A stretch of DNA of 51,282 nucleotides from an uncultured Desulfomicrobium sp. (GTDB taxonomy: Bacteria; Desulfobacterota; Desulfovibrionia; Desulfovibrionales; Desulfomicrobiaceae). Positions within the stretch are counted from its first letter, which is position 1. Every line of letters starts with the position of its first letter. Positions 31,672-45,084 of the stretch are shown here, piece after piece. The position numbers were made by a program, and so were the translations under genes. The DNA lies in contig CALMTS010000167.1 in assembly GCA_937872685.1 (NCBI GenBank), positions 1-51,282 on the forward strand, in the 5' to 3' direction. Under the pieces are notes generated by a model that saw nothing but the letters and a program-made list of their open reading frames with translations, was not told the origin of the DNA and made no database searches.

Positions 31672-33307
31672 CCCGGAACTGACCCCTTCCGCAGAATTCA
31701 AAAGCTTTTTCATAAAATTCTCCGTGATTCGCCTGGGGATCATGGTGTTTCTCCTGATGCTCGCCTTCTCCGAAGCCCTGAACCTCTCGGACCGGGGCAT
31801 GCGGCTCGAGTTCTACCGCGAGACGCAGTACATCCTCTTTTTCGTGTCAGGCTTCTTTCTGAGCATCGTCTACCTGGTGGCCGCGAAGCGGTTCATCAGG
31901 TCCATGGCCCTTTTCAGATTCCAGCTGATCGCGGACCTGACCCTGACGACATGGTGGGTGCTGCTGACGGGTGGCTCCTTCAGCGCCTTCGTCTTCCTCT
32001 TCCTGCTCTGCCTGTTTTTTTACGGTCGCATCGTCGGATTCCAGACCATCGTCGTTTCCTCATTCGCCGTCTGGGTGCTTCTTTTCCTGATTTCCTGCGT
32101 GCAGTTCTATTATCCGCAATATTGGGGACAGATTCATGTCCGCGGCTCGGATCTCGCCTACAACTACAGCCTGCTCACCCTCGCGCTCATTCTCGTCAGC
32201 TCCCTGGTCAGGTTGAGCCGCACGGCCGAGAGCCGGCTCCTGCACCGACTCATCGAGCAGGAAAGCGCCCTGCGCAAGGCCGAGGAGCTCAAATACCGCG
32301 TCTTTGACTGGATCGACGCCGGCCTGCTTGTCGTCGACGGTCAGAAGAGGATCACGAGCATCAACCAGCGGGCCCTGGACTGGCTCGAAGGGTACGACCG
32401 CAGCTGGGTCATCGGCGCGTCCTTCGATTCGTTCTTCCCGGAATTTCTTCCTTTCTGGAAGGATCGCCAACGGTTCCTCTCGCTTCGCAACATGGTCGTG
32501 AGCAAGCGCCGCGATCTCGTTTTCGGGTTCAAAATGACCGAATTGCCCGAGAACGAGGGCTGGATGATCATTTTTTCCGATATCACCGAAGTGCAGAGGA
32601 TGGAGCGGCAGATCAAGGAGATGGAAAAGATGGCCAGCGTGGGTGAACTGGCCGCCGGCCTGGCCCATGAAATGAAGAATCCCCTGGCCGGGATCAAGAC
32701 GAGCCTGCAGTTGCTGCTCTCCGAAGACCTGGAAAAGGATTTTTCCGAACGGCTCTCCAAAGTCATCCTGCGGGACATCGACCGTCTCGATTTTCTGCTC
32801 AAGGACTTTCTGATCTTCGCCCGGCCCCAGGCTCCAAATCCCGAGCCCCTGGACCTGGCCGCGGAGATCGAGCATGTGCTCTTGCCTTTGCGGCTGCAGC
32901 ACCCTCACGTCAGGATACGCGTCGACATCAGGGACGAACCCTTCAATTTCGACCGCAACCAGTTCCACCAGGTGCTCATCAACCTGCTGGTCAACGCCTT
33001 CCAGGCCCTGGAGGGAAGGGACGATCCCTGGATCGTCATTATCGAGACCCGCGAGAACGGGAAAAGGGCGCTTTTCATCTCCGACAACGGCCCGGGCCTG
33101 GCGACGGATGTCGCCGACAGGTGCTTCGACCCCTTCGTCACCACCAAACCGGTGGGATCGGGTCTGGGGCTGGCCATTGCGCGCAGGCTCGCGGCTCAGA
33201 ACGGAACGTTCATCGAGCTTCGCGACAACCCATCAGGAGGGGCCAGGGCCGTCCTGGTCCAGGATGAATCATTTTTCCGCGCACGAGCGGATCAGGATGC
33301 ACCGTGA
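31661..33307 (+). CDS. Membrane sensor histidine kinase with PAS domain (NtrB-like)
   Basis: A 548-residue kinase. Six hydrophobic segments (about 18-37, 56-76, 86-105, 106-122, 127-148 and 167-184) form an integral membrane sensor with very short loops, suggesting sensing within the membrane. A PAS domain (about 210-312) and coiled coil lead to HisKA with His336 in GLAHEMKNPLAG, then the catalytic domain with NLLVNAFQAL, DNGPGL and GSGLGLAIA. The E-x-K-N-P-L pattern is NtrB/ZraS-like. The GTG start at 31661 with AAGGG upstream avoids a long overlap. It overlaps the MoaB-like gene by 11 bp and the helicase gene by 4 bp; no response regulator is adjacent. Confidence 0.88.
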   Translation: MDNNPELTPSAEFKSFFIKFSVIRLGIMVFLLMLAFSEALNLSDRGMRLEFYRETQYILFFVSGFFLSIVYLVAAKRFIRSMALFRFQLIADLTLTTWWVLLTGGSFSAFVFLFLLCLFFYGRIVGFQTIVVSSFAVWVLLFLISCVQFYYPQYWGQIHVRGSDLAYNYSLLTLALILVSSLVRLSRTAESRLLHRLIEQESALRKAEELKYRVFDWIDAGLLVVDGQKRITSINQRALDWLEGYDRSWVIGASFDSFFPEFLPFWKDRQRFLSLRNMVVSKRRDLVFGFKMTELPENEGWMIIFSDITEVQRMERQIKEMEKMASVGELAAGLAHEMKNPLAGIKTSLQLLLSEDLEKDFSERLSKVILRDIDRLDFLLKDFLIFARPQAPNPEPLDLAAEIEHVLLPLRLQHPHVRIRVDIRDEPFNFDRNQFHQVLINLLVNAFQALEGRDDPWIVIIETRENGKRALFISDNGPGLATDVADRCFDPFVTTKPVGSGLGLAIARRLAAQNGTFIELRDNPSGGARAVLVQDESFFRARADQDAP

Positions 33308-36300
33308 ACACCTACATCGCCGACCTTCACATTCACTCCCGGTTCTCAAGGGCCACGAGCAGGAACCTGACCCCGCGGAACCTGGTGGCCTGGGCCGCCG
33401 TCAAGGGTATCGACGTTCTGGCCACCGGCGATTTCACCCATCCCGGCTGGATGGAGATGATCTCCACGCAGCTCGTGGCGGGGGAAGACGGCCTCTTCCG
33501 CCTGAAGGAAGACAGGGGGCTTGAAGAGGAACTCCCCTGGTACTCCGGAAATCTCAATGTCCAGGGGATCAGGTTCGTGCTCTGCACGGAGATCAGCTCC
33601 ATCTACAAGAAGGGCGGCAAGGTCCGTAAAATTCACAACCTCGTCTTCATGCCCGGTCTGGAAGCGGCCCTGAAATTCAACACGCGCCTGGCCCAGGTCG
33701 GAAACCTGGCCTCGGACGGACGCCCCATCCTCGGCCTTGATGCCCGCGACCTGCTGGAGATGGTGCTGGAGACGGACCCTTCGGCTTTCGTCATCCCTGC
33801 GCATATCTGGACTCCCTGGTTTTCCCTGTTCGGCTCAAAATCGGGGTTCGACCGCATCGAGGACTGTTTCGGCGACCTGACCGGAGAGATTTTCGCCCTG
33901 GAGACAGGCCTGTCCTCGGACCCGGAGATGAACTGGCTGTGGAGCGCTCTGGATCGCTTCACCCTGGTTTCCAACTCCGACGCGCACTCCGGCGAGAAAC
34001 TCGGGCGCGAAGGCAATGTCTTCTCCGGGGAGATGTCCTATGCAGGCATGCGCCGCTCCTTGCGCCGCGAGGAGGGGGCGACGCGCTTTGAAGGTACCCT
34101 GGAGTTCTACCCGGAGGAAGGGAAATACCATCTCGACGGCCACCGCAAATGCGGGGTCATGCTGGAACCCGAGGAGACGGCGCGGCACAAGGGAATCTGC
34201 CCCGTGTGCGGCAAGCCCTTGACCATCGGGGTCCTGAACCGGGTGTTTGCCCTGGCCGACCGTGCGGCACCGGTGAGGCCGGAGTGTCAGCCTTCGTTTT
34301 TTTCGCTGGTGCCGTTGCCGGAAATCCTTTCCGAGATTCTCGGCGCTGGACCGGGAACAAAGAAGGTGCAGCGCATGTTCAGCCAGCTCGTGCGGGACTT
34401 CGGCTCGGAGTTCAACATCCTGCGTTCCGTGCCGGTCGAAGATCTGCAGCGCTCCTCCAGGGTGCTGGCCGAAGCCCTGCGCAGGATGCGCCAGGGACTG
34501 GTGCACAGGCATTCCGGCTATGACGGCGAGTTCGGCCGTATTTCCATGTTTTCGCCCCAGGAGCTCCTGGAGTTCAAGCACGGCCGCATGCTGTCCATGG
34601 CCGCTCCGGCGGCCGAAGCCGAGGAGCCGGGCCAACGCTGGCGCAAACCTCAGGTCAAGGCTGCCGGGAAGCGCGAGGAACCACTGCTGGCGCCCAACGA
34701 GATGCAGCTTTCGGCCATACTGGCGGGTCCGGGCCCGGTCCTGGTCCTGGCGGGGCCCGGCACGGGCAAGACCCAGACACTCATGGGCCGCGTGCGGCAT
34801 CTGCTCGACCAGGGTGCGGACCCTGCCCGCATCCTTATCCTGACCTTCACCCGCAAGGCGGCGCGGGAACTGAAGGACCGCCTGCAGCGGGCCTGTCCGG
34901 CAGGGGCCGTGCTGCCCAAGGCCGACACCCTGCACGCCCTGGGGCTGGAATACTGGGCCTCGGTCATGGGCGAACCGCCCATCCTGCTCTCCGAGGAAAG
35001 CAGCCGCCGCCTTTTTGCGGCCGCCAACCCGGATCTGCAGGGCAAGGCCCTGAAAACGGCCTGGAACGACCAGTCCCTGGCGCGCGAAAACGGGGTCCGC
35101 ATTCCGGGCGAGCACACCCGGAGGTACCTGGACCACAAGGCGCGCTTCAATCTGGTGGACTACACCGACCTTCTGGAATTCTGGCTCGAGCACCTGGAAC
35201 TCGGTCACTACGCCCCGGCCTTCGATCACGTCCTGGTGGACGAGGTGCAGGACCTCTCTCCCCTGCAGCTCGCCCTGGTCACGGGCCTCAGCGGGGAGAG
35301 GGGGCGCGGCTTTTTCGCCATCGGCGACCCCAATCAGGCCATTTACGGCTTCCGTGGGGCCGTGCGGGACATCGAAGGCAAGCTGCGTGGCGTCTGGCCG
35401 GAAACCCGGCGCGTCAGACTCGTGCACAACTACCGGTCGTCCCAGCAGATTCTCGATCTGTCCGCACACCTGTTCAGCGAGCGCGAAACTCTCGTGGCCA
35501 GGAAAAGCATCGCCGCATCCATGACCCTCTTCGAGGCCCAGAGCGCCGATCAGGAGGCGAACTGGATCGCGTCCCGCGTGCGTGAACTCCTTGGCGGCAC
35601 GGGGCACTGGCAGGCGGACGCCCAGGGCGGCGGCAGCCTCTCTCCGGGCGACATAGCGGTCCTCGTACGCCTCAAGGTCCTTATCCCGCCCATCGTGAAG
35701 GCCCTGGAAAACGCGGGTATCCCCGTGTCCGTGCCCGAACAGGAGCCCTTTTTCACGGACCCCCGGGTGGAGGTGGTCCTTGGTATCGCCGGCAACGTGC
35801 TCGGCATGCCCGATGCCGTGGAGCAGGAACTTCCCGTCTGCCCCGAGGGGATCGTGGAGAAGGGGCCTCTGGCCATGGCCGTACATTTCTCCGAGACGCC
35901 TCCCTTCGACGCCCTGTTTTGGAAGAGCCGGCCTTTCCTGGACCTGGTCAAGGCCCATCAGAGCTTTGGCGGTTGGCGGGGCCTTCTGAATATGGTGCGC
36001 CTGGAGACGGAACTCTGCGCCATCCGGGCCAAGGCTCAGAAGGTGCAGGTCATGACCATGCACGGCTCCAAGGGCCTGGAGTTCGAAGCCGTGTTCCTGC
36101 CGGGCCTGGAGGAGGGCATCCTGCCGTTCGCGGGCATGGACATGCTTCTGGGCAAGACCGTCGAGGACGGGGTGGACCTTGATGAGGAGCGCCGTCTCTT
36201 CTACGTCGGGCTGACCAGGGCCAAATCCATGCTGTTCCTGAGCCACTGCGCAAGCCGCCGCATGTTCGGCAAGGCCTTCAAACTCGGTTTGTCCTCGCTG

Positions 36301-36387
36301 GTGCGCCGCCTGCCCCAGGACATGCTGCGCAAGAGCGCCATCCGCCGCCATGTGCGGCGCAACGAACGCCAGTTGAGCCTGTTCTGA
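33304..36387 (+). CDS. PHP phosphoesterase - zinc site - UvrD/Rep helicase fusion
   Basis: A 1027-residue fusion. Residues 1-230 form a PHP domain with an apparently complete metal site: His9 and His11 (DLHIHS), Asp43 and His46 (GDFTHPGW), Glu96, His111, His167, and Asp226 and His228 (SNSDAHS). A probable zinc site follows (Cys283, Cys299, Cys302 in CPVCG, plus a histidine). Residues 455-1010 are a superfamily 1A helicase: Q-motif Gln468, Walker A GPGTGKT (Lys489), VDEVQD (646-650), GDPNQAIYGFRG (674-685), NYRSS, MHGSKGLEFEAV (His920) and FYVGLTRAK (Arg972). The start is GTG, overlapping the kinase stop by 4 bp. A combined nucleic-acid nuclease/phosphatase and helicase role is likely but unproven. 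Confidence 0.87.
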   Translation: MNTYIADLHIHSRFSRATSRNLTPRNLVAWAAVKGIDVLATGDFTHPGWMEMISTQLVAGEDGLFRLKEDRGLEEELPWYSGNLNVQGIRFVLCTEISSIYKKGGKVRKIHNLVFMPGLEAALKFNTRLAQVGNLASDGRPILGLDARDLLEMVLETDPSAFVIPAHIWTPWFSLFGSKSGFDRIEDCFGDLTGEIFALETGLSSDPEMNWLWSALDRFTLVSNSDAHSGEKLGREGNVFSGEMSYAGMRRSLRREEGATRFEGTLEFYPEEGKYHLDGHRKCGVMLEPEETARHKGICPVCGKPLTIGVLNRVFALADRAAPVRPECQPSFFSLVPLPEILSEILGAGPGTKKVQRMFSQLVRDFGSEFNILRSVPVEDLQRSSRVLAEALRRMRQGLVHRHSGYDGEFGRISMFSPQELLEFKHGRMLSMAAPAAEAEEPGQRWRKPQVKAAGKREEPLLAPNEMQLSAILAGPGPVLVLAGPGTGKTQTLMGRVRHLLDQGADPARILILTFTRKAARELKDRLQRACPAGAVLPKADTLHALGLEYWASVMGEPPILLSEESSRRLFAAANPDLQGKALKTAWNDQSLARENGVRIPGEHTRRYLDHKARFNLVDYTDLLEFWLEHLELGHYAPAFDHVLVDEVQDLSPLQLALVTGLSGERGRGFFAIGDPNQAIYGFRGAVRDIEGKLRGVWPETRRVRLVHNYRSSQQILDLSAHLFSERETLVARKSIAASMTLFEAQSADQEANWIASRVRELLGGTGHWQADAQGGGSLSPGDIAVLVRLKVLIPPIVKALENAGIPVSVPEQEPFFTDPRVEVVLGIAGNVLGMPDAVEQELPVCPEGIVEKGPLAMAVHFSETPPFDALFWKSRPFLDLVKAHQSFGGWRGLLNMVRLETELCAIRAKAQKVQVMTMHGSKGLEFEAVFLPGLEEGILPFAGMDMLLGKTVEDGVDLDEERRLFYVGLTRAKSMLFLSHCASRRMFGKAFKLGLSSLVRRLPQDMLRKSAIRRHVRRNERQLSLF

Positions 36388-36392
36388 AAGAC

Positions 36393-37103
36393 ATGCATTT
36401 CCGTCTGGCGGCGCCCTCCTGCGTCATCCCCGACAGGGTCGGGCCCAATTGCCGGGCCTTGTCGCCTCTTGTGCGGGAGGTCGGGCTCATGCTCTTGGAA
36501 ACGCGGGGCTGTCAGGATTACGACGATCGCGACCTGCCGCCGGACCTCCCCGCCCTGGGTCTGGCATATCATGCCCATCTGCCCCTGGATTTGCCCTGGG
36601 AATCCGGAATTCATGCGGTCTGCGGGGCGATTGCGGCCATCGAGCAAAAAATTGCCTTTCTCCACCCCTGCGGGTATGTGCTCCATCCGCCTCCGCGGGG
36701 GGAACTGACGCGCCTGGTGCGGATGCGGCCGGATCTGGCGCCGCTTCTCAGACTCGAAAACACCCGGGAGAGCGACCTTTCAGACATCTGGACGGAAATC
36801 GAGACCCTGGATCTGGGCGTGTGCCTGGATGTGGGGCATCTGGTCAGCTATGGCCAGGAACGGATTTTGCAAATTCCCGGTTTTCTTGACCGGGTACGCA
36901 TGCTGCACATTTACGGGGGAGAGTCCGACCGCGGTCATGCCGGGCTTGAGCACCTGCCCGACCCCGGTCAGCTGCGCGGAATTTTGCGCGAAGTGCGCGG
37001 AGACAGCGTGCTGGTGGCGGAGGTCTTCCGTTTGGAGGAACTCCGGCGTTCCCTGGACCTGCTTCGCGCCTGGCTTTCGGAATGGGGTATGGATCATGAT
37101 TGA
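36393..37103 (+). CDS. cbiR: Putative cobamide-remodelling phosphodiesterase (CbiR-like)
   Basis: A 236-residue TIM-barrel protein of the AP-endonuclease-2 superfamily. Metal-ligand-like residues are His60/His62 (YHAHLP), His98 (VLHPP), Glu122 (LENT), Asp146 and His149 (CLDVGH), His172 (LHIYGG) and Glu210 (AEVFR). The family includes CbiR, which hydrolyses the nucleotide-loop phosphoester of cobamides so the cobinamide part can be rebuilt with another lower ligand. The call depends on the next gene, cobU, which overlaps it by 8 bp and acts on the product. Sequence alone would allow other TIM-barrel functions. The Shine-Dalgarno sequence is weak, so the start is tentative. Confidence 0.68.
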   Translation: MHFRLAAPSCVIPDRVGPNCRALSPLVREVGLMLLETRGCQDYDDRDLPPDLPALGLAYHAHLPLDLPWESGIHAVCGAIAAIEQKIAFLHPCGYVLHPPPRGELTRLVRMRPDLAPLLRLENTRESDLSDIWTEIETLDLGVCLDVGHLVSYGQERILQIPGFLDRVRMLHIYGGESDRGHAGLEHLPDPGQLRGILREVRGDSVLVAEVFRLEELRRSLDLLRAWLSEWGMDHD

Positions 37104-37605
37104 ACTGGTGCTGGGCGGCAACAAGTCCGGCAAGTCCGACTTCGGCCTGGAATTGCTCACAAGTGGACCGGGCCCCTGGACCCTGGTGGCCACGGGCAAG
37201 TCCCGGGACATGGCCTTCCGGGAGCAAATCCGGGCCCATCGCCGCGATCGCGACTCCGTCATAGCGGTGCGCGAGGTGGACACGGATCTGACCGGCGCTC
37301 TTCGCGAACTGTCCCCCCGGGGAGGCGGCGTCCTGGTGGACAGCCTCGATTTCTGGATGTTCTCCCTGGCCGCTCTCGGCCCTGCGGCCAGGCGGGACAT
37401 GCAGGAGGAATTCCTGGCGGAGCTCGCCGTCTGGAGGGGGGGGAGGCTGGTCCTCGTCTCCACGGAAATGGGGCTCGGGCCTCTGGCCTATGACGGAACC
37501 GTGCGTGCTTTCGCGCGGGATCTGGGACAGCTCAACCGTGAAATTGCCAGGGCCAGTGCAAGCGTGTATCTGGTGGTTGCCGGTCTGGCCCAAAAACTCA
37601 AGTGA
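37096..37605 (+). CDS. cobU: Adenosylcobinamide kinase / adenosylcobinamide-phosphate guanylyltransferase
   Basis: CobU phosphorylates adenosylcobinamide and then attaches GMP, activating it for the final cobamide assembly step. The 169-residue protein has the P-loop GGNKSGKSDFG (residues 8-18), VATGKSRD (31-38), the guanylylated histidine His48 in IRAHRR, LVDSLDFWMFSL, and the VSTEMGLG segment followed by LNREIA and VVAGLAQKLK at the end. It is slightly short and the usual HW pair after His48 is not kept. It overlaps the cbiR-like gene by 8 bp, supporting a cobamide salvage module that could serve NrdJ. Confidence 0.87.
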   Translation: MIELVLGGNKSGKSDFGLELLTSGPGPWTLVATGKSRDMAFREQIRAHRRDRDSVIAVREVDTDLTGALRELSPRGGGVLVDSLDFWMFSLAALGPAARRDMQEEFLAELAVWRGGRLVLVSTEMGLGPLAYDGTVRAFARDLGQLNREIARASASVYLVVAGLAQKLK

Positions 37606-37612
37606 GAAGGTC

Positions 37613-38638
37613 ATGGCATATTTTCGAAAGCTGGATCCGAAGCTGGCCAAGCTTCAGGAATTGCTGAACAAGAACGAGCGTTGGCTGATCCTCATCAATG
37701 CCGACCCTGACGCCCTGGCCTCGGCCATGGCCTTGAAGCGCATCCTGGCCGGCCGTGTGGAACAGGTCGCCATCGCCCACGTCAACGAGATCACCCGTCC
37801 CGACAACCTGGCCATGATCAGGCTGTTGCGCATCGCGACCAAGAAGCTGACACCGCCCCTGGCCGCCCAGTACGACCGTTTCGCCCTGGTGGATTCCCAG
37901 CCCCACCACCATCCCGATTTCGCGAACATCAATTTTTCCGTGGTCATCGACCACCACCCCAAGGTAGCCGGAACGCCGGTCAAGGCCGACTATGTCGAGA
38001 TCGTGTCCGAGTACGGATCCAACTCGACCATCATGACCGAATATCTCTACAACCTGGGCCTGCGGCCGGGAAAACTGCTGGCCACGGCCCTGCTCTACGG
38101 CATCAAGACCGACACCCAGAGCTTCGAACGCGAATTCCACGACAACGACATGAAGGCCTTCCGCTACCTGTCGAAGTTCTACAGCAAGCCGCTCCTGCAC
38201 AAGATCATCCGTTCCGAGTTCCGCCTGGAGTGGCTCAAGTACTTCACCCAGGCCTTCCGCAAGATGCGGGTCATGGGCAAGACCATCACCATATTCATGG
38301 GCAAGGTCGATTCAGCCGACATCCTGGTCATCCTGGCCGATTTCTTCCTGCGTGTGCACGGTCTGTCCACGACCATGGTCAGCGGCATCAGCGAGGACAA
38401 GCTCGTCGTGGTCTTTCGCGGCGACGGCCTGCGTCGCGACATGGGCAAGTTCGCCAAGCGGCTCTTCGGCGACGTGGGTTCGGCCGGCGGGCACAAGTCC
38501 ATGGCCCGGGCCGAGATCCCCATGGAGAAGCTCGGCTGCCATCACGCCAGCCAGTTCATATGGGAGCGCCTGCACGGGAGTACGGAAGCCAAGAAGAAGA
38601 AAAAGGAGCCGGAAAACGCACCAAACTGCGGCGCGTAG
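37613..38638 (+). CDS. DHH-family phosphoesterase (NrnA-like)
   Basis: A 341-residue DHH/DHHA1 phosphoesterase. Metal motifs are visible: NADPDALASA near residue 30, a histidine-rich DSQPHHHPDF near 94, and DHH within VVIDHHPK near 107. The GSAGGHKSMAR motif of the DHHA1 domain lies near residue 291. Relatives degrade short oligoribonucleotides (nanoRNase) and pAp; oligonucleotide or cyclic-dinucleotide turnover is likely, the exact substrate unknown. The ATG at 37613 has AGAAGG just upstream. It begins 7 bp after cobU. The tail is lysine-rich. A terminator-like hairpin follows, inside the start of polA. Confidence 0.85.
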   Translation: MAYFRKLDPKLAKLQELLNKNERWLILINADPDALASAMALKRILAGRVEQVAIAHVNEITRPDNLAMIRLLRIATKKLTPPLAAQYDRFALVDSQPHHHPDFANINFSVVIDHHPKVAGTPVKADYVEIVSEYGSNSTIMTEYLYNLGLRPGKLLATALLYGIKTDTQSFEREFHDNDMKAFRYLSKFYSKPLLHKIIRSEFRLEWLKYFTQAFRKMRVMGKTITIFMGKVDSADILVILADFFLRVHGLSTTMVSGISEDKLVVVFRGDGLRRDMGKFAKRLFGDVGSAGGHKSMARAEIPMEKLGCHHASQFIWERLHGSTEAKKKKKEPENAPNCGA

Positions 38639-38671
38639 ACCGACATCAGCTCCCACACAACCGGAGGGTGC

Positions 38672-41257
38672 ATGAGTTTGCAGACAAGGCTCGGGCTCAG
38701 GACCGAGCCCCTTTTTTTGATCGACGGCCACGCCTTCATCTACCGCGGCTTTTACGCCTACCCTGATTTCAAGCGCTCCGACGGGTTTCCGACCAGCGCC
38801 ATGTACATCATCTTCAAGCTGGTCTTGCGCCTCCTGCGCGAGGAAAAGCCATCCCATCTGGTTTTCATCACCGACGGCCGCGGGCCGACCTTCCGCAACG
38901 AACTCTACCCGGACTACAAGGCCAACCGCCCGCGCATGCCCGAAGGGCTGTCCGTCCAGCTCGATCCCCTCAAGGCCGGCCTGCGCCTCCTGGGCATTCC
39001 GGTGCTGGTAGCCGAGGGCGGCGAGGCCGACGACTGCATCGCCTCCCTGGCCGCGCGCTACAAAGGCCGCCGCAGCGTGGTCATTGTTGGCGCGGACAAG
39101 GATCTGCGGCAGTGCCTGGACGAGAACGTGGTCATGTGGGACCCGGCCCAGGGCAAGGAAAAGATCGTCACCCTCGATACGTTCGTGGAGGAGACGGGCC
39201 TGCGGCCGGAGCAGTGGGCCGACTATCAGGCCATGATCGGCGATTCGGCGGACAACATCCCCGGCATCCCGAAGGTTGGTCCCAAGACGGCCATGGGGTT
39301 TCTGCGCCGCTTTCCGAGCCTGGACCTGCTCAAGGCAAATTTCGACCGCCTGACGGCCAAGGAGCAGACCCTGCTCGGGCCGCACATGGAACAGGCCTTT
39401 GTCTACCGCAGGCTGACGACGCTGCGCACGGACATGTGCACGGAGTTCGGTCTGGACGACCTGGCCCTGGGGCCCATCGACGGGTCGGCCCTGGAGTATT
39501 TCAAGGAATACGAGTTCCGTTCCCTGCTCGCCGAGTTCAAGGCGCTGGCCCCGGCGGCTCCGCGGGTATCCGGCGGAACGGAGCGGGAAGGGGAGAAGCC
39601 TTCCGACGCGGTGCCAGGGCAGGATGAGCCGGCCGGGCCGGTCCGTGTCGAGCCCCGCATCGTTTCCGATCTCAAATCCATGGCCGGGCGGGAAGTGGGG
39701 CTGCACGGCGAGTCCGGGCGCTGGATTCTGGGCATGGACGACAGCGAACTGCTCTTCATGGGGCGGGACGCGGAACTCAGCCGGGCCCTGGCCGGGGCCA
39801 CGGTGCACATGACTTCCTACAAGAGCGTGCTGGAGCAGGATCGGCTGGACCTCTCGGGCTGCTCCGAAATCTTCGATATCGAGCTGGCCGCCTACCTCCT
39901 GAGCCCCGAGGAGCGGAACTATTCTCTGGAGCGCATCCGCGACGGGCTGGGAGAGGAAGTCGACGTGCACCCCGAGAACCTCGGGCAGACCGTGCTGGCC
40001 GTGGGCCGCCTGCTGCGTTCGCGCCTGGCGGGCTCGGAACTGCTCCAACTGCTGCGGGGGCTGGAACAGCCTCTGACTGAGGTATTGGTGCGCATGCAGA
40101 AGCGCGGCATCCGCATCGACCAGACCAGGTTCCGCGAATTCCTGGACATGGTCCAGACGGAACTCGACCGCCTGACCCGCAGGATCCACGAGCTGGCCGG
40201 GGGGGAATTCAACATCCGCTCCAGCCAGCAACTGGCTGAAGTTCTTTTTTCGAAACTGGGCCTGTCCAGCAGGCAGAAGACTCCCGGCGGCGCCCAGTCC
40301 ACGTCCAGCAGCGTGCTCGAAGGCCTGGCCGGGCAGCACCCCATCATCGAGGACATCCTCGAATACAGGATGTACGAGAAGCTGCGTTCGACCTACCTGG
40401 AACCCATGCCGCAGCTGGCCGACGCCGGAGGGCGCATCCACACGACGTTCAACCAGCTGGCCACGGCCACGGGGCGGCTCTCCAGCAGCAACCCCAACCT
40501 GCAGAACATTCCCATCCGCGGAAGCCTGGGACCCCGCATGCGGTCCTGCTTCGTGGCCGCTCCGGGTTCCCTGCTCGTGGCCGCGGACTATTCGCAGATC
40601 GAGCTCCGGGTGCTGGCGCACATGTCCGGGGACCCGACGCTGCTGGACGCCTTTGCCGCGGGCGACGACATCCACGCCCGCACGGCCGGAATCCTTTTCG
40701 ACAAGACAGAGGTCAGCGCCGACGAGCGGCGCAAGGCCAAGACCATCAACTTCGGCCTGCTCTACGGCATGGGGCCGCAGAAGCTGGGCAGGGAGCTGGG
40801 CATCAGCCTGAAGGAGGCCAAGGAGTTCATCTCTGTCTATTTCAGCAAGCTTTCGCGGGTTAGGGAGTTCTACGAGGAGATCGAGGAGGGCGCCAAATCC
40901 CTGGGTTACGTGACCACTCTGGCCGGGCGCAGGCGCATGCTGCCCGAGATCAACTCCCGCAACGTCAACCTGGCCCAGCAGGCTCGGCGCATGGCCATCA
41001 ACACCGTGGTCCAGGGCTCGGCCGCGGACATTATCAAGAAGGCCATGCTCGAAGTGGACAAGAGCACGGTTATTGGCGAATTAGGCGCGAGCCTGATCCT
41101 GCAGATTCACGATGAACTCCTGCTCGAGGCCCCGCAGGCCGAAGCCCGGAAGGTGGGGGAGGCCGTCGCCTCCGTCATGGGTTCGGTCTACGCCCTGTCC
41201 GTGCCTCTGGCCGTGGACTGGGGCGTCGGTGCGGATTGGAGCGAGGCCCACAAATAA
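38672..41257 (+). CDS. polA: DNA polymerase I
   Basis: Pol I fills gaps and removes RNA primers. The 861-residue protein has an N-terminal 5'-3' exonuclease (LFLIDGHAFIYRG, GGEADDCIA, GDSADNIPGIP) and a C-terminal polymerase with motif A DYSQIELR, motif B RRKAKTINFGLLYG and motif C IHDELLLE. The middle 3'-5' exonuclease region is shortened: the expected DxE motif is LHGES and the NxxxD motif is absent, so proofreading is probably lost. GGAGG lies 6 bases before the ATG. A full intrinsic terminator sequence spans codons 6-16. Confidence 0.96.
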   Translation: MSLQTRLGLRTEPLFLIDGHAFIYRGFYAYPDFKRSDGFPTSAMYIIFKLVLRLLREEKPSHLVFITDGRGPTFRNELYPDYKANRPRMPEGLSVQLDPLKAGLRLLGIPVLVAEGGEADDCIASLAARYKGRRSVVIVGADKDLRQCLDENVVMWDPAQGKEKIVTLDTFVEETGLRPEQWADYQAMIGDSADNIPGIPKVGPKTAMGFLRRFPSLDLLKANFDRLTAKEQTLLGPHMEQAFVYRRLTTLRTDMCTEFGLDDLALGPIDGSALEYFKEYEFRSLLAEFKALAPAAPRVSGGTEREGEKPSDAVPGQDEPAGPVRVEPRIVSDLKSMAGREVGLHGESGRWILGMDDSELLFMGRDAELSRALAGATVHMTSYKSVLEQDRLDLSGCSEIFDIELAAYLLSPEERNYSLERIRDGLGEEVDVHPENLGQTVLAVGRLLRSRLAGSELLQLLRGLEQPLTEVLVRMQKRGIRIDQTRFREFLDMVQTELDRLTRRIHELAGGEFNIRSSQQLAEVLFSKLGLSSRQKTPGGAQSTSSSVLEGLAGQHPIIEDILEYRMYEKLRSTYLEPMPQLADAGGRIHTTFNQLATATGRLSSSNPNLQNIPIRGSLGPRMRSCFVAAPGSLLVAADYSQIELRVLAHMSGDPTLLDAFAAGDDIHARTAGILFDKTEVSADERRKAKTINFGLLYGMGPQKLGRELGISLKEAKEFISVYFSKLSRVREFYEEIEEGAKSLGYVTTLAGRRRMLPEINSRNVNLAQQARRMAINTVVQGSAADIIKKAMLEVDKSTVIGELGASLILQIHDELLLEAPQAEARKVGEAVASVMGSVYALSVPLAVDWGVGADWSEAHK
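38688..38718 (+). terminator. Intrinsic terminator sequence inside the polA 5' coding region
   Basis: GGCTCGG (38688-38694) pairs with CCGAGCC (38703-38709); an alternative register GGGCTC/GAGCCC also works. Two C and seven T (38712-38718) follow. It lies 50 bp after the DHH-gene stop and within codons 6-16 of polA, so it could end the upstream operon, attenuate polA, or both. Confidence 0.65.
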
Positions 41258-41279
41258 CCATCATTTTCCTGGATACGAC

Positions 41280-42452
41280 ATGCTGAACAAACTTCGACTG
41301 CTGACTCCCGGGCCGACTCCGCTGCCCGAGGAAGTGCGCCTGGTCCTGGCCCGGGACATGATCCATCACCGCAAGCAGGACTTCGTGCGCGTCATGGAGC
41401 GCATCCAGCCCGGACTGCAGTACCTCTTCGGCACCAGCCAGCAGGTCCTGCCTTTGTCCTGCTCGGGAACCGGCGCGATGCACGCGGCCGTGACCAACCT
41501 CTTCGCCCCGGGCGAGAAGGTGCTGGTCATCGAGGGCGGAAAGTTCGGGGAGCGCTGGCGGGAGATCGCCCAGTCCCAGAAACTGGAAGTGGTCTCCCTT
41601 GTGCTGGAGAACGGCCAGGCCGTGACGGCTGAGGCCGTGCGGGAAGCTCTGGCCGCGGACCCTGCCGTGCGCGGCGTGCTGGTCCAGGCCTCGGAAACCT
41701 CCACCGGCGTGTTGCACCCGGTCCACGAACTCGGCGCCGTGACGCGGGACAGGGACGTTCTGCTTGTTGTCGACGGCATCTCGGCCGTGGGCATATCGCC
41801 CTGCCCCATGGACGCCTGGGGCATCGACTGCCTGCTGACCGGATCGCAGAAGGGACTCATGCTTCCGCCCGGCCTGGCCCTGCTGGCCCTGAGCGCGCGG
41901 GCCTGGGACAAGGTGCGCGCGGTCGGCCCGGCCAATTTCTATTTCAACCTGCTGGCCGAACGGGACAAGAGCCTCGTGCATCAGACCCTCTTCACCTCAC
42001 CCGTCAACCTGCTGCAGGGCCTGGCCGTGAGTCTTGACCTGTTCCGGGAAGCGACGCTTGAGGGCGTATACCGCAAGCAGTGGGCCCTCACCGCCATGGC
42101 GCGGACCGGCGCGGCGAGTCTGGGCCTCGACCTTCTGGCCAGAACGCATTTCACCTGGGGCCTGACCTCCATCCGGCTGCCCGCCGGCATCGACGGTTCC
42201 CTGGTGTTGAAGGCCGCGGCCGAGCGCTGCGGGGTGATCATGGCCGGAGGGCAGGGGGAGATGAAAAAAAGCGTGATCCGGCTCGGCCACATGGGACATG
42301 TGGACTGGAGCGACGTCCTGGCCGGCCTGCATGCCCTGAAGACCGGGCTTGCGGCCGCGGGCGGATACTCAGCGGCCAAATCCTACATGGAAGAGGCCGT
42401 GCATGCCTATGAAGAGGCCCTGGACGGGGGTTATCCCGAGATGCGGGCCTAA
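41280..42452 (+). CDS. Class V PLP aminotransferase (alanine/serine-glyoxylate type)
   Basis: A 390-residue PLP enzyme of the class V family. It starts LRLLTPGPTPLPEEV, has the PLP-phosphate-binding CSGTGAMHAAV (61-71), the PLP aspartate in LLVVDGISAVG (Asp165), and the Schiff-base lysine in TGSQKGLMLPPG (Lys191). This pattern fits serine/alanine-glyoxylate aminotransferases and related soluble hydrogenase 42-kDa subunit proteins; substrate pairs cannot be assigned. The ATG is 22 bp after polA with no strong Shine-Dalgarno sequence. A DUF1844 gene follows after 9 bp and argC after that. Confidence 0.87.
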   Translation: MLNKLRLLTPGPTPLPEEVRLVLARDMIHHRKQDFVRVMERIQPGLQYLFGTSQQVLPLSCSGTGAMHAAVTNLFAPGEKVLVIEGGKFGERWREIAQSQKLEVVSLVLENGQAVTAEAVREALAADPAVRGVLVQASETSTGVLHPVHELGAVTRDRDVLLVVDGISAVGISPCPMDAWGIDCLLTGSQKGLMLPPGLALLALSARAWDKVRAVGPANFYFNLLAERDKSLVHQTLFTSPVNLLQGLAVSLDLFREATLEGVYRKQWALTAMARTGAASLGLDLLARTHFTWGLTSIRLPAGIDGSLVLKAAAERCGVIMAGGQGEMKKSVIRLGHMGHVDWSDVLAGLHALKTGLAAAGGYSAAKSYMEEAVHAYEEALDGGYPEMRA

Positions 42453-42461
42453 GGAGAGAAC

Positions 42462-42767
42462 ATGAGCGAAGAAAAGAAGATGGCCGAGGAATACGAGGAA
42501 CTGTCCTGCTCCTGTCCGGAGCTGCCGCAGCTGGATTTCGCCACATTCGTCCTGTCCATGAGTTCTTCGGCCCTGGTCCATCTGGGCGAGGTGCCGGAAC
42601 CCGAGAGCGGGCAGATCATGGAGAACGTGCTTGCGGCCAAGCAGACCATCGACATCCTGTGCATGCTCGAGAGCAAGACCAAGGGCAATCTGACGGCCCA
42701 GGAATCCCGCCTGCTGCGGGACATGCTCTTCGAACTGCGCATGAAATACGTGCAGAAGGCGAAATAG
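42462..42767 (+). CDS. DUF1844 family protein
   Basis: A 101-residue soluble protein matching the DUF1844 pattern: an acidic start, then LDFATFVLSMSSSALVHLGE followed by a helical half with AKQTIDILCMLESKTKGNL and a basic end. Its function is unknown. AGGAG lies 5-6 bases before the ATG. It lies between the aminotransferase and argC with short gaps, so it is part of this operon. Confidence 0.85.
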   Translation: MSEEKKMAEEYEELSCSCPELPQLDFATFVLSMSSSALVHLGEVPEPESGQIMENVLAAKQTIDILCMLESKTKGNLTAQESRLLRDMLFELRMKYVQKAK

Positions 42768-42778
42768 GAGGAGCGGGC

Positions 42779-43828
42779 ATGGCATATCGCGTCGGATTGG
42801 TCGGTGTGACCGGCTACACCGGAATGGAGTTGACCCGCATCCTGCTCGGCCATCCGGACCTGCGTCTGACCCAGGTTACCTCCCGCAAGGAGGCGGGCCA
42901 GCCCCTGCAGAAGATCTACCCGTTCCTGCAGGGTACGGAGCTTGGCGAACTGGAGATCACGGTTCCCGACAGCGCGTTTCTGGCCGCGAACTGCGATCTG
43001 GTCTTCCTGGCCGTCCCCCACGGCACGGCCATGGAGATGGCCGCCGAGTTGCGGGATAAGGGGGCGCGGGTCGTGGACCTGAGCGCCGATTTCCGCCTGC
43101 GCGACCGCGAAGTCTACGAGAGCTGGTACGGCGTGACCCACACCCGCGCGGGCCTGCTGCCGGAGGCCGTTTACGGGTTGCCGGAACTGTATGCCGACCG
43201 TATTGCGCAGGCCTCGCTGGTGGCCAACCCCGGCTGCTATCCGACGTCGTCCATCCTGGCCCTGTACCCGGCCCTGCAGGCCGGCCTCATTTCAGCCGAA
43301 GACCTGGTCATCGACTCCAAATCCGGCACTTCCGGCGCCGGTCGCAAGGCGGGCGTCGGGACCCTCTTCTGCGAAGTCTCGGACACGTTCCGCGCCTACA
43401 ACCTGACAAAGCACCGCCACACTCCGGAAATCGAGCAGGAGCTTGGCCTTGCCGCCGGCCGGGACATCCGTCTCTCCTTCAATACGCACCTGCTGCCCAT
43501 CAACCGGGGCATCCTGACCACGGCCTACGCCAAGCTCGCGCCGGGCGCCGGGGCGGATGAGATCCGCGCGTGCTACGAACGTTTCTACGCGGGCAAGAGG
43601 TGGGTGCGCCTGCTGCCTGCCGGCACCCTGCCGGAAACACGGTGGGTGCGCGGAACCAATTTCTGCGACATCGGCCTGATCACGGATCCGCGCACGGACC
43701 GGCTCATCGTGGTTTCGGCCATCGACAACCTCTGCCGGGGGGCTTCGGGCCAGGCCGTGGCCAACGCGAACATCATGCTCGGTCTGGGCGAGGATGTCGG
43801 CTTGCCTCGGGCTGCGCTTATGCCGTAA
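42779..43828 (+). CDS. argC: N-acetyl-gamma-glutamyl-phosphate reductase
   Basis: ArgC reduces N-acetylglutamyl phosphate to the semialdehyde, the third step of arginine synthesis, with NADPH. The 349-residue protein shows the dinucleotide motif GVTGYTGMEL (residues 9-18), the catalytic cysteine in NPGCYPTS (Cys153), SGTSGAGRK, and the histidine in FNTHLLPINRG. AGGAGGAG lies 6 bases before the ATG. Other arg genes are not adjacent. The EAL-HDOD gene begins 8 bp after its stop. Confidence 0.96.
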   Translation: MAYRVGLVGVTGYTGMELTRILLGHPDLRLTQVTSRKEAGQPLQKIYPFLQGTELGELEITVPDSAFLAANCDLVFLAVPHGTAMEMAAELRDKGARVVDLSADFRLRDREVYESWYGVTHTRAGLLPEAVYGLPELYADRIAQASLVANPGCYPTSSILALYPALQAGLISAEDLVIDSKSGTSGAGRKAGVGTLFCEVSDTFRAYNLTKHRHTPEIEQELGLAAGRDIRLSFNTHLLPINRGILTTAYAKLAPGAGADEIRACYERFYAGKRWVRLLPAGTLPETRWVRGTNFCDIGLITDPRTDRLIVVSAIDNLCRGASGQAVANANIMLGLGEDVGLPRAALMP

Positions 43829-43836
43829 GGTCTTTT

Positions 43837-45084
43837 ATGTCCGAAAAAGAACCCGAGAAGCTCTACGACAAGATTTTTGTCGCGCGGCAGCCCATTTTCA
43901 GCGAGGAGATGAAGGTCTGGGGCTACGAGCTTCTCTTCAGGCACGGGGAGACGCAGGCGGCCTCCTTTGCCGACGGCGACCAGGCCACGACGCAGGTCAT
44001 CGCCGACGGGTTCACCCTGGCTTCCCGGGGCATGCGCAAGGGAACCAAGGCCCTGGTCAATTTCCCGCGCAACGTGCTCGTGGGCGATGCCCCCTACGTG
44101 CTTCCCCCGGAGCGTTGCGTGGTGGAGATCCTGGAGACGGTCCTGCCCGAAACCGATGTCATGGAGGCCTGCAGGGCGCTCAAGAAACGCGGTTACATCC
44201 TGGCCCTGGACGACTTCGTGGGGCAGCCGGGATTCGAGCCCCTGTGCGAGATGGCGGACATCATCAAGGTCGACATCCTGCACAAGACGCCGGTCGAGGT
44301 CATGGACATCGTCAGGGGCTTGCGTGGCTACAAGGCCAGCCTGCTGGCAGAAAAGGTCGAAAATCTCGACATGTTCACGGTTTGCAAACGGCTTGGGTTC
44401 GCCTATTTTCAGGGATACTTCTTCAGCAAGCCCGAAATCATTCCCGGCCGCAAGCTCTCTTCCAGCCAGACGACGAAAATCAAGCTCCTGAAGGAACTGA
44501 ACGAGCCGGACACGGAACACGACAGGCTCGTCGAGATCATTCAGACGGATCTCTCCATCTCGTACCGCCTGCTGCAATATATCAACTCCGCCAGTTTCGG
44601 CCTGCGGAGCAGGATCGAATCCATCCAGCGGGCCGTGAACATGCTCGGCCGCCAGAATCTGCGCCAGTGGCTGCAGGTCATCATCCTTTCCGACATCAAC
44701 AGCACGGACAAGGCCCAGGAGCTTGTGCGCATCTCCGTGAGACGCGGCCGTTTCCTGCAGCTCCTCGCGGCGGACTGGCCCACCCCCTTCGGTCCCGACA
44801 GCATGTTCCTGCTGGGTTTTTTTTCGGTGCTGGACGCCATTTTGGACCAGTATATGGATCAGCTGCTCGAGGAAATCTCCCTTGCTCCCGACATCAAGGC
44901 CGCATTGACCGATCCGCGCAATCCGAATGCCGTATGGTGCGAACTGCTTGCCGAACTCGATCGCGGCAACTGGGGCCGGCTCGAGGTCAAGGCTGCGGCC
45001 ATGGGCATGCCCATGGAACTGGTGGACCGGGTTTCCATTGAGGCGGAGACCTGGGCCGAAGAGGTCATGAGCGCGGCTGTTTAG
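43837..45084 (+). CDS. EAL-HDOD signalling protein, copy 1
   Basis: A 415-residue protein with a compact EAL-like domain (about 10-205) and an HDOD domain (about 205-390). EAL motif equivalents are YELLFR (Glu31), VNFPRN, VEILE, LALDDF, IIKVDIL, AEKVE and YFQGYFF. Most catalytic acidic positions remain, but the loop DDFGTGYSS of active phosphodiesterases is DDFVGQ, so c-di-GMP hydrolysis is doubtful and binding may be the role. HDOD domains are HD-like domains without the full metal site and mediate signalling. A closely related copy lies immediately downstream. AAGG lies about 7 bases before the ATG. Confidence 0.9.
   Translation: MSEKEPEKLYDKIFVARQPIFSEEMKVWGYELLFRHGETQAASFADGDQATTQVIADGFTLASRGMRKGTKALVNFPRNVLVGDAPYVLPPERCVVEILETVLPETDVMEACRALKKRGYILALDDFVGQPGFEPLCEMADIIKVDILHKTPVEVMDIVRGLRGYKASLLAEKVENLDMFTVCKRLGFAYFQGYFFSKPEIIPGRKLSSSQTTKIKLLKELNEPDTEHDRLVEIIQTDLSISYRLLQYINSASFGLRSRIESIQRAVNMLGRQNLRQWLQVIILSDINSTDKAQELVRISVRRGRFLQLLAADWPTPFGPDSMFLLGFFSVLDAILDQYMDQLLEEISLAPDIKAALTDPRNPNAVWCELLAELDRGNWGRLEVKAAAMGMPMELVDRVSIEAETWAEEVMSAAV
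44799..44824 (+). other. Terminator-like hairpin with T8 run inside EAL-HDOD copy 1
   Basis: CAGCA (44799-44803) pairs with TGCTG (44810-44814), followed by GG and eight T (44817-44824) within the coding sequence for LGFFSV. The paralogous gene has the same hairpin but its T-run is broken by C. It could cause partial termination or slippage. Confidence 0.4.

Follow-up and report, generated by a model that had tools for sequence, protein, structure and literature searches.

The polA gene of the window (the whole 51,282-nt stretch of Desulfomicrobium DNA analyzed in this study) is an 861-codon ORF on the forward strand (38672-41257, ATG at 38672) whose product was identified as DNA polymerase I (NCBIfam, 869 bits against a cut-off of 720). 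A Shine-Dalgarno-like GGAGGG (38663-38668, +) lies 4-9 bases before the start codon. The genes upstream of polA were described in the original prediction as a cobU-DHH pair, and Pfam agrees with that assignment: a DHH-family phosphoesterase (37613-38638, +) is the immediate neighbor of polA and is itself preceded on the same strand by an ORF with a CobU domain at residues 93-257 (36829-37605, +), the true start of which is likely further downstream than called. The C-terminus of the DHH protein includes a run of five lysine codons (38591-38605, +) about 70 nt before polA, and a lysine-rich DHH end was also seen in the genus members examined. A ribosome slowing at this lysine run could become uncoupled from RNA polymerase before the terminator-like element described below. 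Further upstream, positions 33304-36387 (+) encode a 1027-residue protein in which an N-terminal part resembling TIGR00375 (residues 105-413, 172 bits, under the family cut-off) is fused to a UvrD/PcrA-type helicase, a combination that we take to resemble an endonuclease Q-helicase fusion.

A terminator-like element, made up of a G+C-rich 7-bp hairpin followed by a run of seven T, occupies 38688-38718 (+) in codons 6-16 of polA. The coordinates and the description given in the original prediction both hold, as does its statement that the hairpin and the protein share the same sequence, with the start codon upstream of the element and the element inside the DNA polymerase I ORF. The 5' stem arm (GGCTCGG, 38688-38694, +) covers codons 6-8, the 3' arm (CCGAGCC, 38703-38709, +) covers codons 11-13, and between them is an 8-nt loop, GCTCAGGA (38695-38702, +), that varies between relatives. 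A spacer of two bases (CC, 38710-38711, +), a detail absent from the earlier description, separates the stem from the T-run (CTT TTT TTG, 38712-38718, +, codons 14-16), in which the transcript would be released. Intrinsic terminators are expected to have at least five G+C-rich stem pairs with a short loop, and the polA element has seven pairs, six of them G-C, with a loop of 8; they are also expected to have a U-tract, which is represented here by T7 past the 2-nt spacer in all 15 genus genomes with polA. A consensus terminator scan of positions 32000-45000 returned 16 sites against a shuffle mean of 9.5 (sd 3.9), and the polA element, with its six G-C pairs, ranked first among the 16 in these 13 kb. 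The 32 nt of 38688-38719 fold with an energy of -14.7 kcal/mol (z -3.03; 3 of 200 shuffles were equally good), and the folding energy of the 101-nt context (38640-38740) is ordinary (z -0.72), with no competing structure detected there in simple folds. Membership in a known Rfam family was rejected, as positions 38500-38900 gave only two matches, both with E of 3 or more and far under the cut-offs.

Within the genus Desulfomicrobium, polA is present in 15 of the 16 genomes, the one without it being 63% complete, and all 15 have the 7-pair stem followed by exactly T7, in a gene whose identity between genus members is as low as 62%. The pattern named in the original prediction as damaging to it, that is, relatives that keep the amino acids with a broken hairpin, was absent among these 15 genomes. 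The 5' arm is the same in all of them and the 3' arm in 13; in the remaining two (L014 and L015) the 3' arm reads CCGGGCC, which gives a U-G pair. The same two genomes have a DHH-polA gap of 130 nt versus 21-33 nt in the others, and the embedded element is unaltered save for that pair. Sliding windows, column invariance, codon draws, the geometry of the element, the Shine-Dalgarno comparison and pair covariation were based on 11 representatives, which are the 15 genomes minus L003, L006, L010 and L015, each 95-98% identical to one that was kept. In all 11 the stem starts at +17 of polA and the T7 ends at +47, and the GGA of the Shine-Dalgarno-like sequence is invariant.

The codons of the element are constrained at sites where the protein leaves a choice. 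Across the 15 genomes, all seven synonymous-capable sites of codons 6-16 that fall in the stem or T-run are invariant, and all six of the others vary. If the sites are exchangeable, such a split has a chance of 1 in 1716, a figure to be read with the fact that the sites were chosen after the alignment had been viewed, the two classes being set by the structure and not by the variation. For comparison, the invariance of the same codon choices elsewhere in polA was 0 of 19 columns for Arg with third-position G, 1 of 22 for Glu with third-position G, 0 of 44 for Leu CTC, 0 of 44 for Leu TTR, 0 of 59 for Leu or Ile with third-position T, 1 of 12 for Phe TTT and 8 of 122 for small residues with third-position C. 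This synonymous constraint opposes base composition in both directions: a genome with a GC3 of 0.90 retains the rare, T-rich CTT TTT TTG, and L016, with a GC3 of 0.43, retains CTC, which makes up 3% of its Leu codons.

Residues 10-12 vary between species (RTE, KTE, GSE, KAG, QSE) with pairing retained, once through U-G. Six of the seven stem pairs never vary and the seventh changes from U-A to U-G in one of the 11 representatives, so no two-sided compensatory change was found in any stem pair of this set, and the case rests on synonymous constraint. The original prediction had looked to relatives for a stem and T-run kept by compensatory changes; they are kept in 15 of 15 genus genomes, but through synonymous constraint instead. 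Sliding windows of codon identity placed 8- and 12-codon windows from codons 9-11 in the top dozen, not first, and no 4-codon window of the element region was among those listed by codon identity. That the region is not singled out by such windows is expected because constrained and free sites alternate within it. The first base of codon 6 and the third base of codon 13 form a stem-extending pair in none of the 15 genomes (chance about 0.009 by a hand count over the 11 representatives, rising to about 0.07 when the four closest species are counted as one), which is only suggestive of a stem held at exactly 7 bp by non-pairing flanks, as if its strength were tuned. On these sequence comparisons, it is very likely that the start of polA contains a conserved RNA-level element.

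The composition of the protein was taken into account with a codon-draw null, in which the amino acids were fixed and codons were sampled from each species' own polA usage (200,000 draws). For the polA of the window, none of the 200,000 draws gave the stem together with T7; over the 11 representative species, the number was 0 to 246 per 200,000. By itself the stem is not unusual (0.3-6% of draws), as RLGL-TEP favors the repeat; what is rare in the GC-rich members of the genus is the T-run. It is unlikely that hairpin and T7 came together in polA by chance. As a baseline, 20 stretches of a close genome (its own polA included) were pooled with the window, 451 kb in all; this sequence carried 350 called ORFs, and its terminators with at least T7 numbered 28. 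Two of these were the polA element, three others were at a called ORF start, and two lay in the interior of a same-strand ORF. On inspection, two of those three had an ATG just past the terminator, which in our judgement is the true start, and the remaining ORF looked spurious. We therefore judge polA to be the only one of the 350 baseline ORFs with a T7 terminator truly inside the gene start.

Within the order, 70 polA starts were aligned and anchored, 15 from the genus and 55 from outside it (the L020 sequence is cut at codon 5 of polA). None of the 55 outside starts has the stem, and four have a loose terminator-like match; similar polA N termini lacking the element are common outside the genus. 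T7 without the hairpin occurs at the same polA codons (PVFLID) in three genomes of another family (L025, L095 and L099), so T7 by itself is no proof of a terminator. In L030, from another family, a weaker GGTC-GACC-type hairpin (-9.4 kcal/mol) followed by TTTTTCTT was observed at the same polA codons and is possibly an independent weak counterpart. Among distant polA starts (55 of 56 loci were examinable) there was one weak match and no strong one, and this, along with the absence of the stem from the order outgroups, rules out a general feature of polA. Loci L002-L031 represent five families of the order, and the DHH gene adjoins polA in 29 of these 30; the remaining one, L020, begins inside polA. 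An older intergenic terminator that was later relocated was also rejected as an origin, as the DHH-polA interval of 14 outgroup loci yielded no convincing one. As far as sequence comparison within this sample goes, the DHH-polA gene order predates the element, which is a genus-specific innovation.

Our preferred reading, which we consider probable, is that the start of polA contains a functional intrinsic terminator, which dates from the genus ancestor, arose in a pre-existing DHH-polA pair and acts as a fixed partial attenuator. Polymerases that transcribe the CobU-DHH genes, or that start at any promoter before the polA start codon, would reach the hairpin and T7 at about 47 nt of polA. Some transcripts would end at about 38716-38718, which would provide a 3' end for the upstream genes, and the remaining ones would read through to become polA mRNA, so that the brake would cap polA relative to the genes before it. 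Since the element comes after the start codon, no promoter position bypasses it and any polA mRNA must pass it. If the terminator works, polA depends on read-through, and each polA transcript probably has to get past a built-in brake. The position of the element early in the gene, +17 to +47, is that of an attenuator, and the stem and T-run are retained together, as a terminator requires. With a 7-bp stem, an 8-nt loop and a 2-nt spacer, the terminator may be a modest one. A released RNA would carry the polA ribosome-binding site and start codon with no stop codon, and an initiating ribosome would need rescue. A tmRNA scored over the cut-off in 13 of the 16 genus genomes, so rescue is available. 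Nevertheless, a non-stop RNA is a cost that needs a benefit, and this counts against the terminator reading. Termination in vivo, its efficiency, the share of read-through and the fate of the non-stop RNA are all things that we infer.

The original prediction went further and proposed that translation of polA prevents termination. Such a translation-dependent attenuator, in which a ribosome on polA, or one reinitiating after DHH, would hold the hairpin open so that polA transcription goes on only with prompt translation, seems unlikely. The geometry gives it some appeal, as the ribosome-binding site and start codon are just upstream of a stem that begins at +17 in all representatives, +17 is roughly the edge of the footprint of an initiating ribosome, and, given that edge, one or two translocation steps would invade the stem. 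Pause sites, as in pyrBI, can couple transcription and translation (discussed in PMC4824070). That ribosomes hold intragenic terminators open is documented for E. coli (PMC5021804). However, according to the E. coli data described in PMC4824070, translation lowered the efficiency of a terminator 30 bp past the AUG by only about 10%, which the authors attribute to RNA polymerase passing before the first ribosome arrives, and this leaves the claim of the original prediction unsupported. The distance from the start codon to the T7 is only 47 nt, which gives the first ribosome little time, and no pause site or alternative structure showed in simple folds. The same source describes E. coli terminators as fully efficient when more than about 27-30 nt separate them from the stop codon before them (PMC4824070). 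At polA, the distance from the DHH stop codon (38636-38638) to the stem is 49 nt, beyond this range of repression by ribosomes. Together, the DHH stop codon at 49 nt, the stem at +17 and the E. coli data favor a fixed partial attenuator over a translation switch, although pausing could alter the timing. A regulated, dual-coded gate is likewise an unlikely reading; here polA transcripts would escape termination with the aid of a ribosome or some factor, the supply of Pol I would track translation capacity or growth rate, and the failed RNAs would be non-stop and cleared via tmRNA.

Alternatively, the element might be a coincidence of coding, built by the residues RLGL-TEP-LFL and the codon preferences of start sites and then kept by common descent. 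The frequency of the stem alone in codon draws and the three outgroup genomes with T7 and no hairpin are what this reading would expect, but a preference for A/T near starts does not account for the invariant G/C wobble sites of the stem, least of all in L016, and neighboring synonymous sites drift freely. With the lack of the stem in all 55 order outgroups and of a strong element in all 55 distant polA starts as further counter-evidence, this reading is very unlikely. Another possibility is that a regulator of polA binds the inverted repeat, either as an operator in the DNA or as a protein site in the RNA, and that the T-run is incidental; GGCTCGG-N8-CCGAGCC is indeed a perfect palindrome in 13 of the 15 genus polA genes. 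However, 14 of the 16 genus genomes contain the exact palindrome at a single site each, 13 of them in polA, and a sequence that occurs once per genome is not a shared operator. The T7 is as strictly kept as the palindrome, and L014 and L015 break the DNA symmetry but keep the RNA pairing by U-G, which makes such a site highly improbable. The sole exact palindrome of the genome G005 is outside polA, at C75:39880-39901, and its polA has the U-G form. Hairpin-stimulated transcriptional slippage on the T7, which would yield frameshifted polA messages, is extremely improbable even though the layout of a hairpin with a U-run is that of stem-loop-mediated transcriptional slippage sites, reportedly described by Penno et al. 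in 2015. One extra T would give 17-112 residues; with one T fewer, 10 of 11 species would have a stop after 15 residues and the other one after 106. The T-run is 7 long in all 15 genomes; the shifted frames are not conserved, which rules out slippage into a conserved second frame.

The fixed partial attenuator favored here has partial counterparts in known systems. In the trp and pyrBI leader-peptide attenuators, the ribosome is positioned on the same short RNA segment that holds an intrinsic terminator, but at polA no separate leader peptide was seen and the hairpin is within the structural gene. The engineered early-coding terminators described by Li et al. (PMC4824070) are alike in lying in the first 100 bp of a gene, in producing an RNA with no stop codon and in showing little translational repression; those terminators were built, whereas the polA element is natural and its synonymous sites are conserved throughout a genus. 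Premature 5' terminators or attenuators, as described in PMC2965389, similarly put an intrinsic terminator between upstream transcription and a gene body and may limit expression, as may the ispU terminator of E. coli with its 6-bp stem and eight U (PMC7815308). The elements described in those two sources precede the start codon or sit in 5' UTRs, whereas the whole polA element follows the start codon, and neither the fold of 38640-38740 nor Rfam revealed a sensing structure at polA. The arfA gene of E. coli and the brfA gene of B. subtilis also have a terminator inside the gene and a message without a stop codon, and the brfA terminator could be broken by synonymous mutations (PMC8012679). 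However, the arfA and brfA terminators are near the 3' end, whereas the polA element is at codons 6-16 of 861. The truncated arfA and brfA proteins work and are controlled by trans-translation, whereas only 15 codons precede the end of the polA element, and it is unlikely that a 15-residue PolA fragment is functional. By analogy, the polA element would be an intrinsic terminator in kind, nearest to 5' attenuators in effect and nearest to arfA and brfA in its dual coding. A search of open-licence papers (titles and abstract openings) for attenuators, conserved intragenic or gene-start terminators and transcript ends of the order found no report of the polA element.

Predicted terminators in coding regions are usually dismissed as chance occurrences or as silenced by ribosomes, and here genus-wide synonymous conservation says that one has been kept. 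The kept element sits in a gene for DNA replication and repair, at a place where no arrangement of promoters can avoid it. It thus provides a natural and compact test of whether early-coding terminators set expression, how cells tolerate non-stop RNA and whether read-through may limit a replication enzyme.
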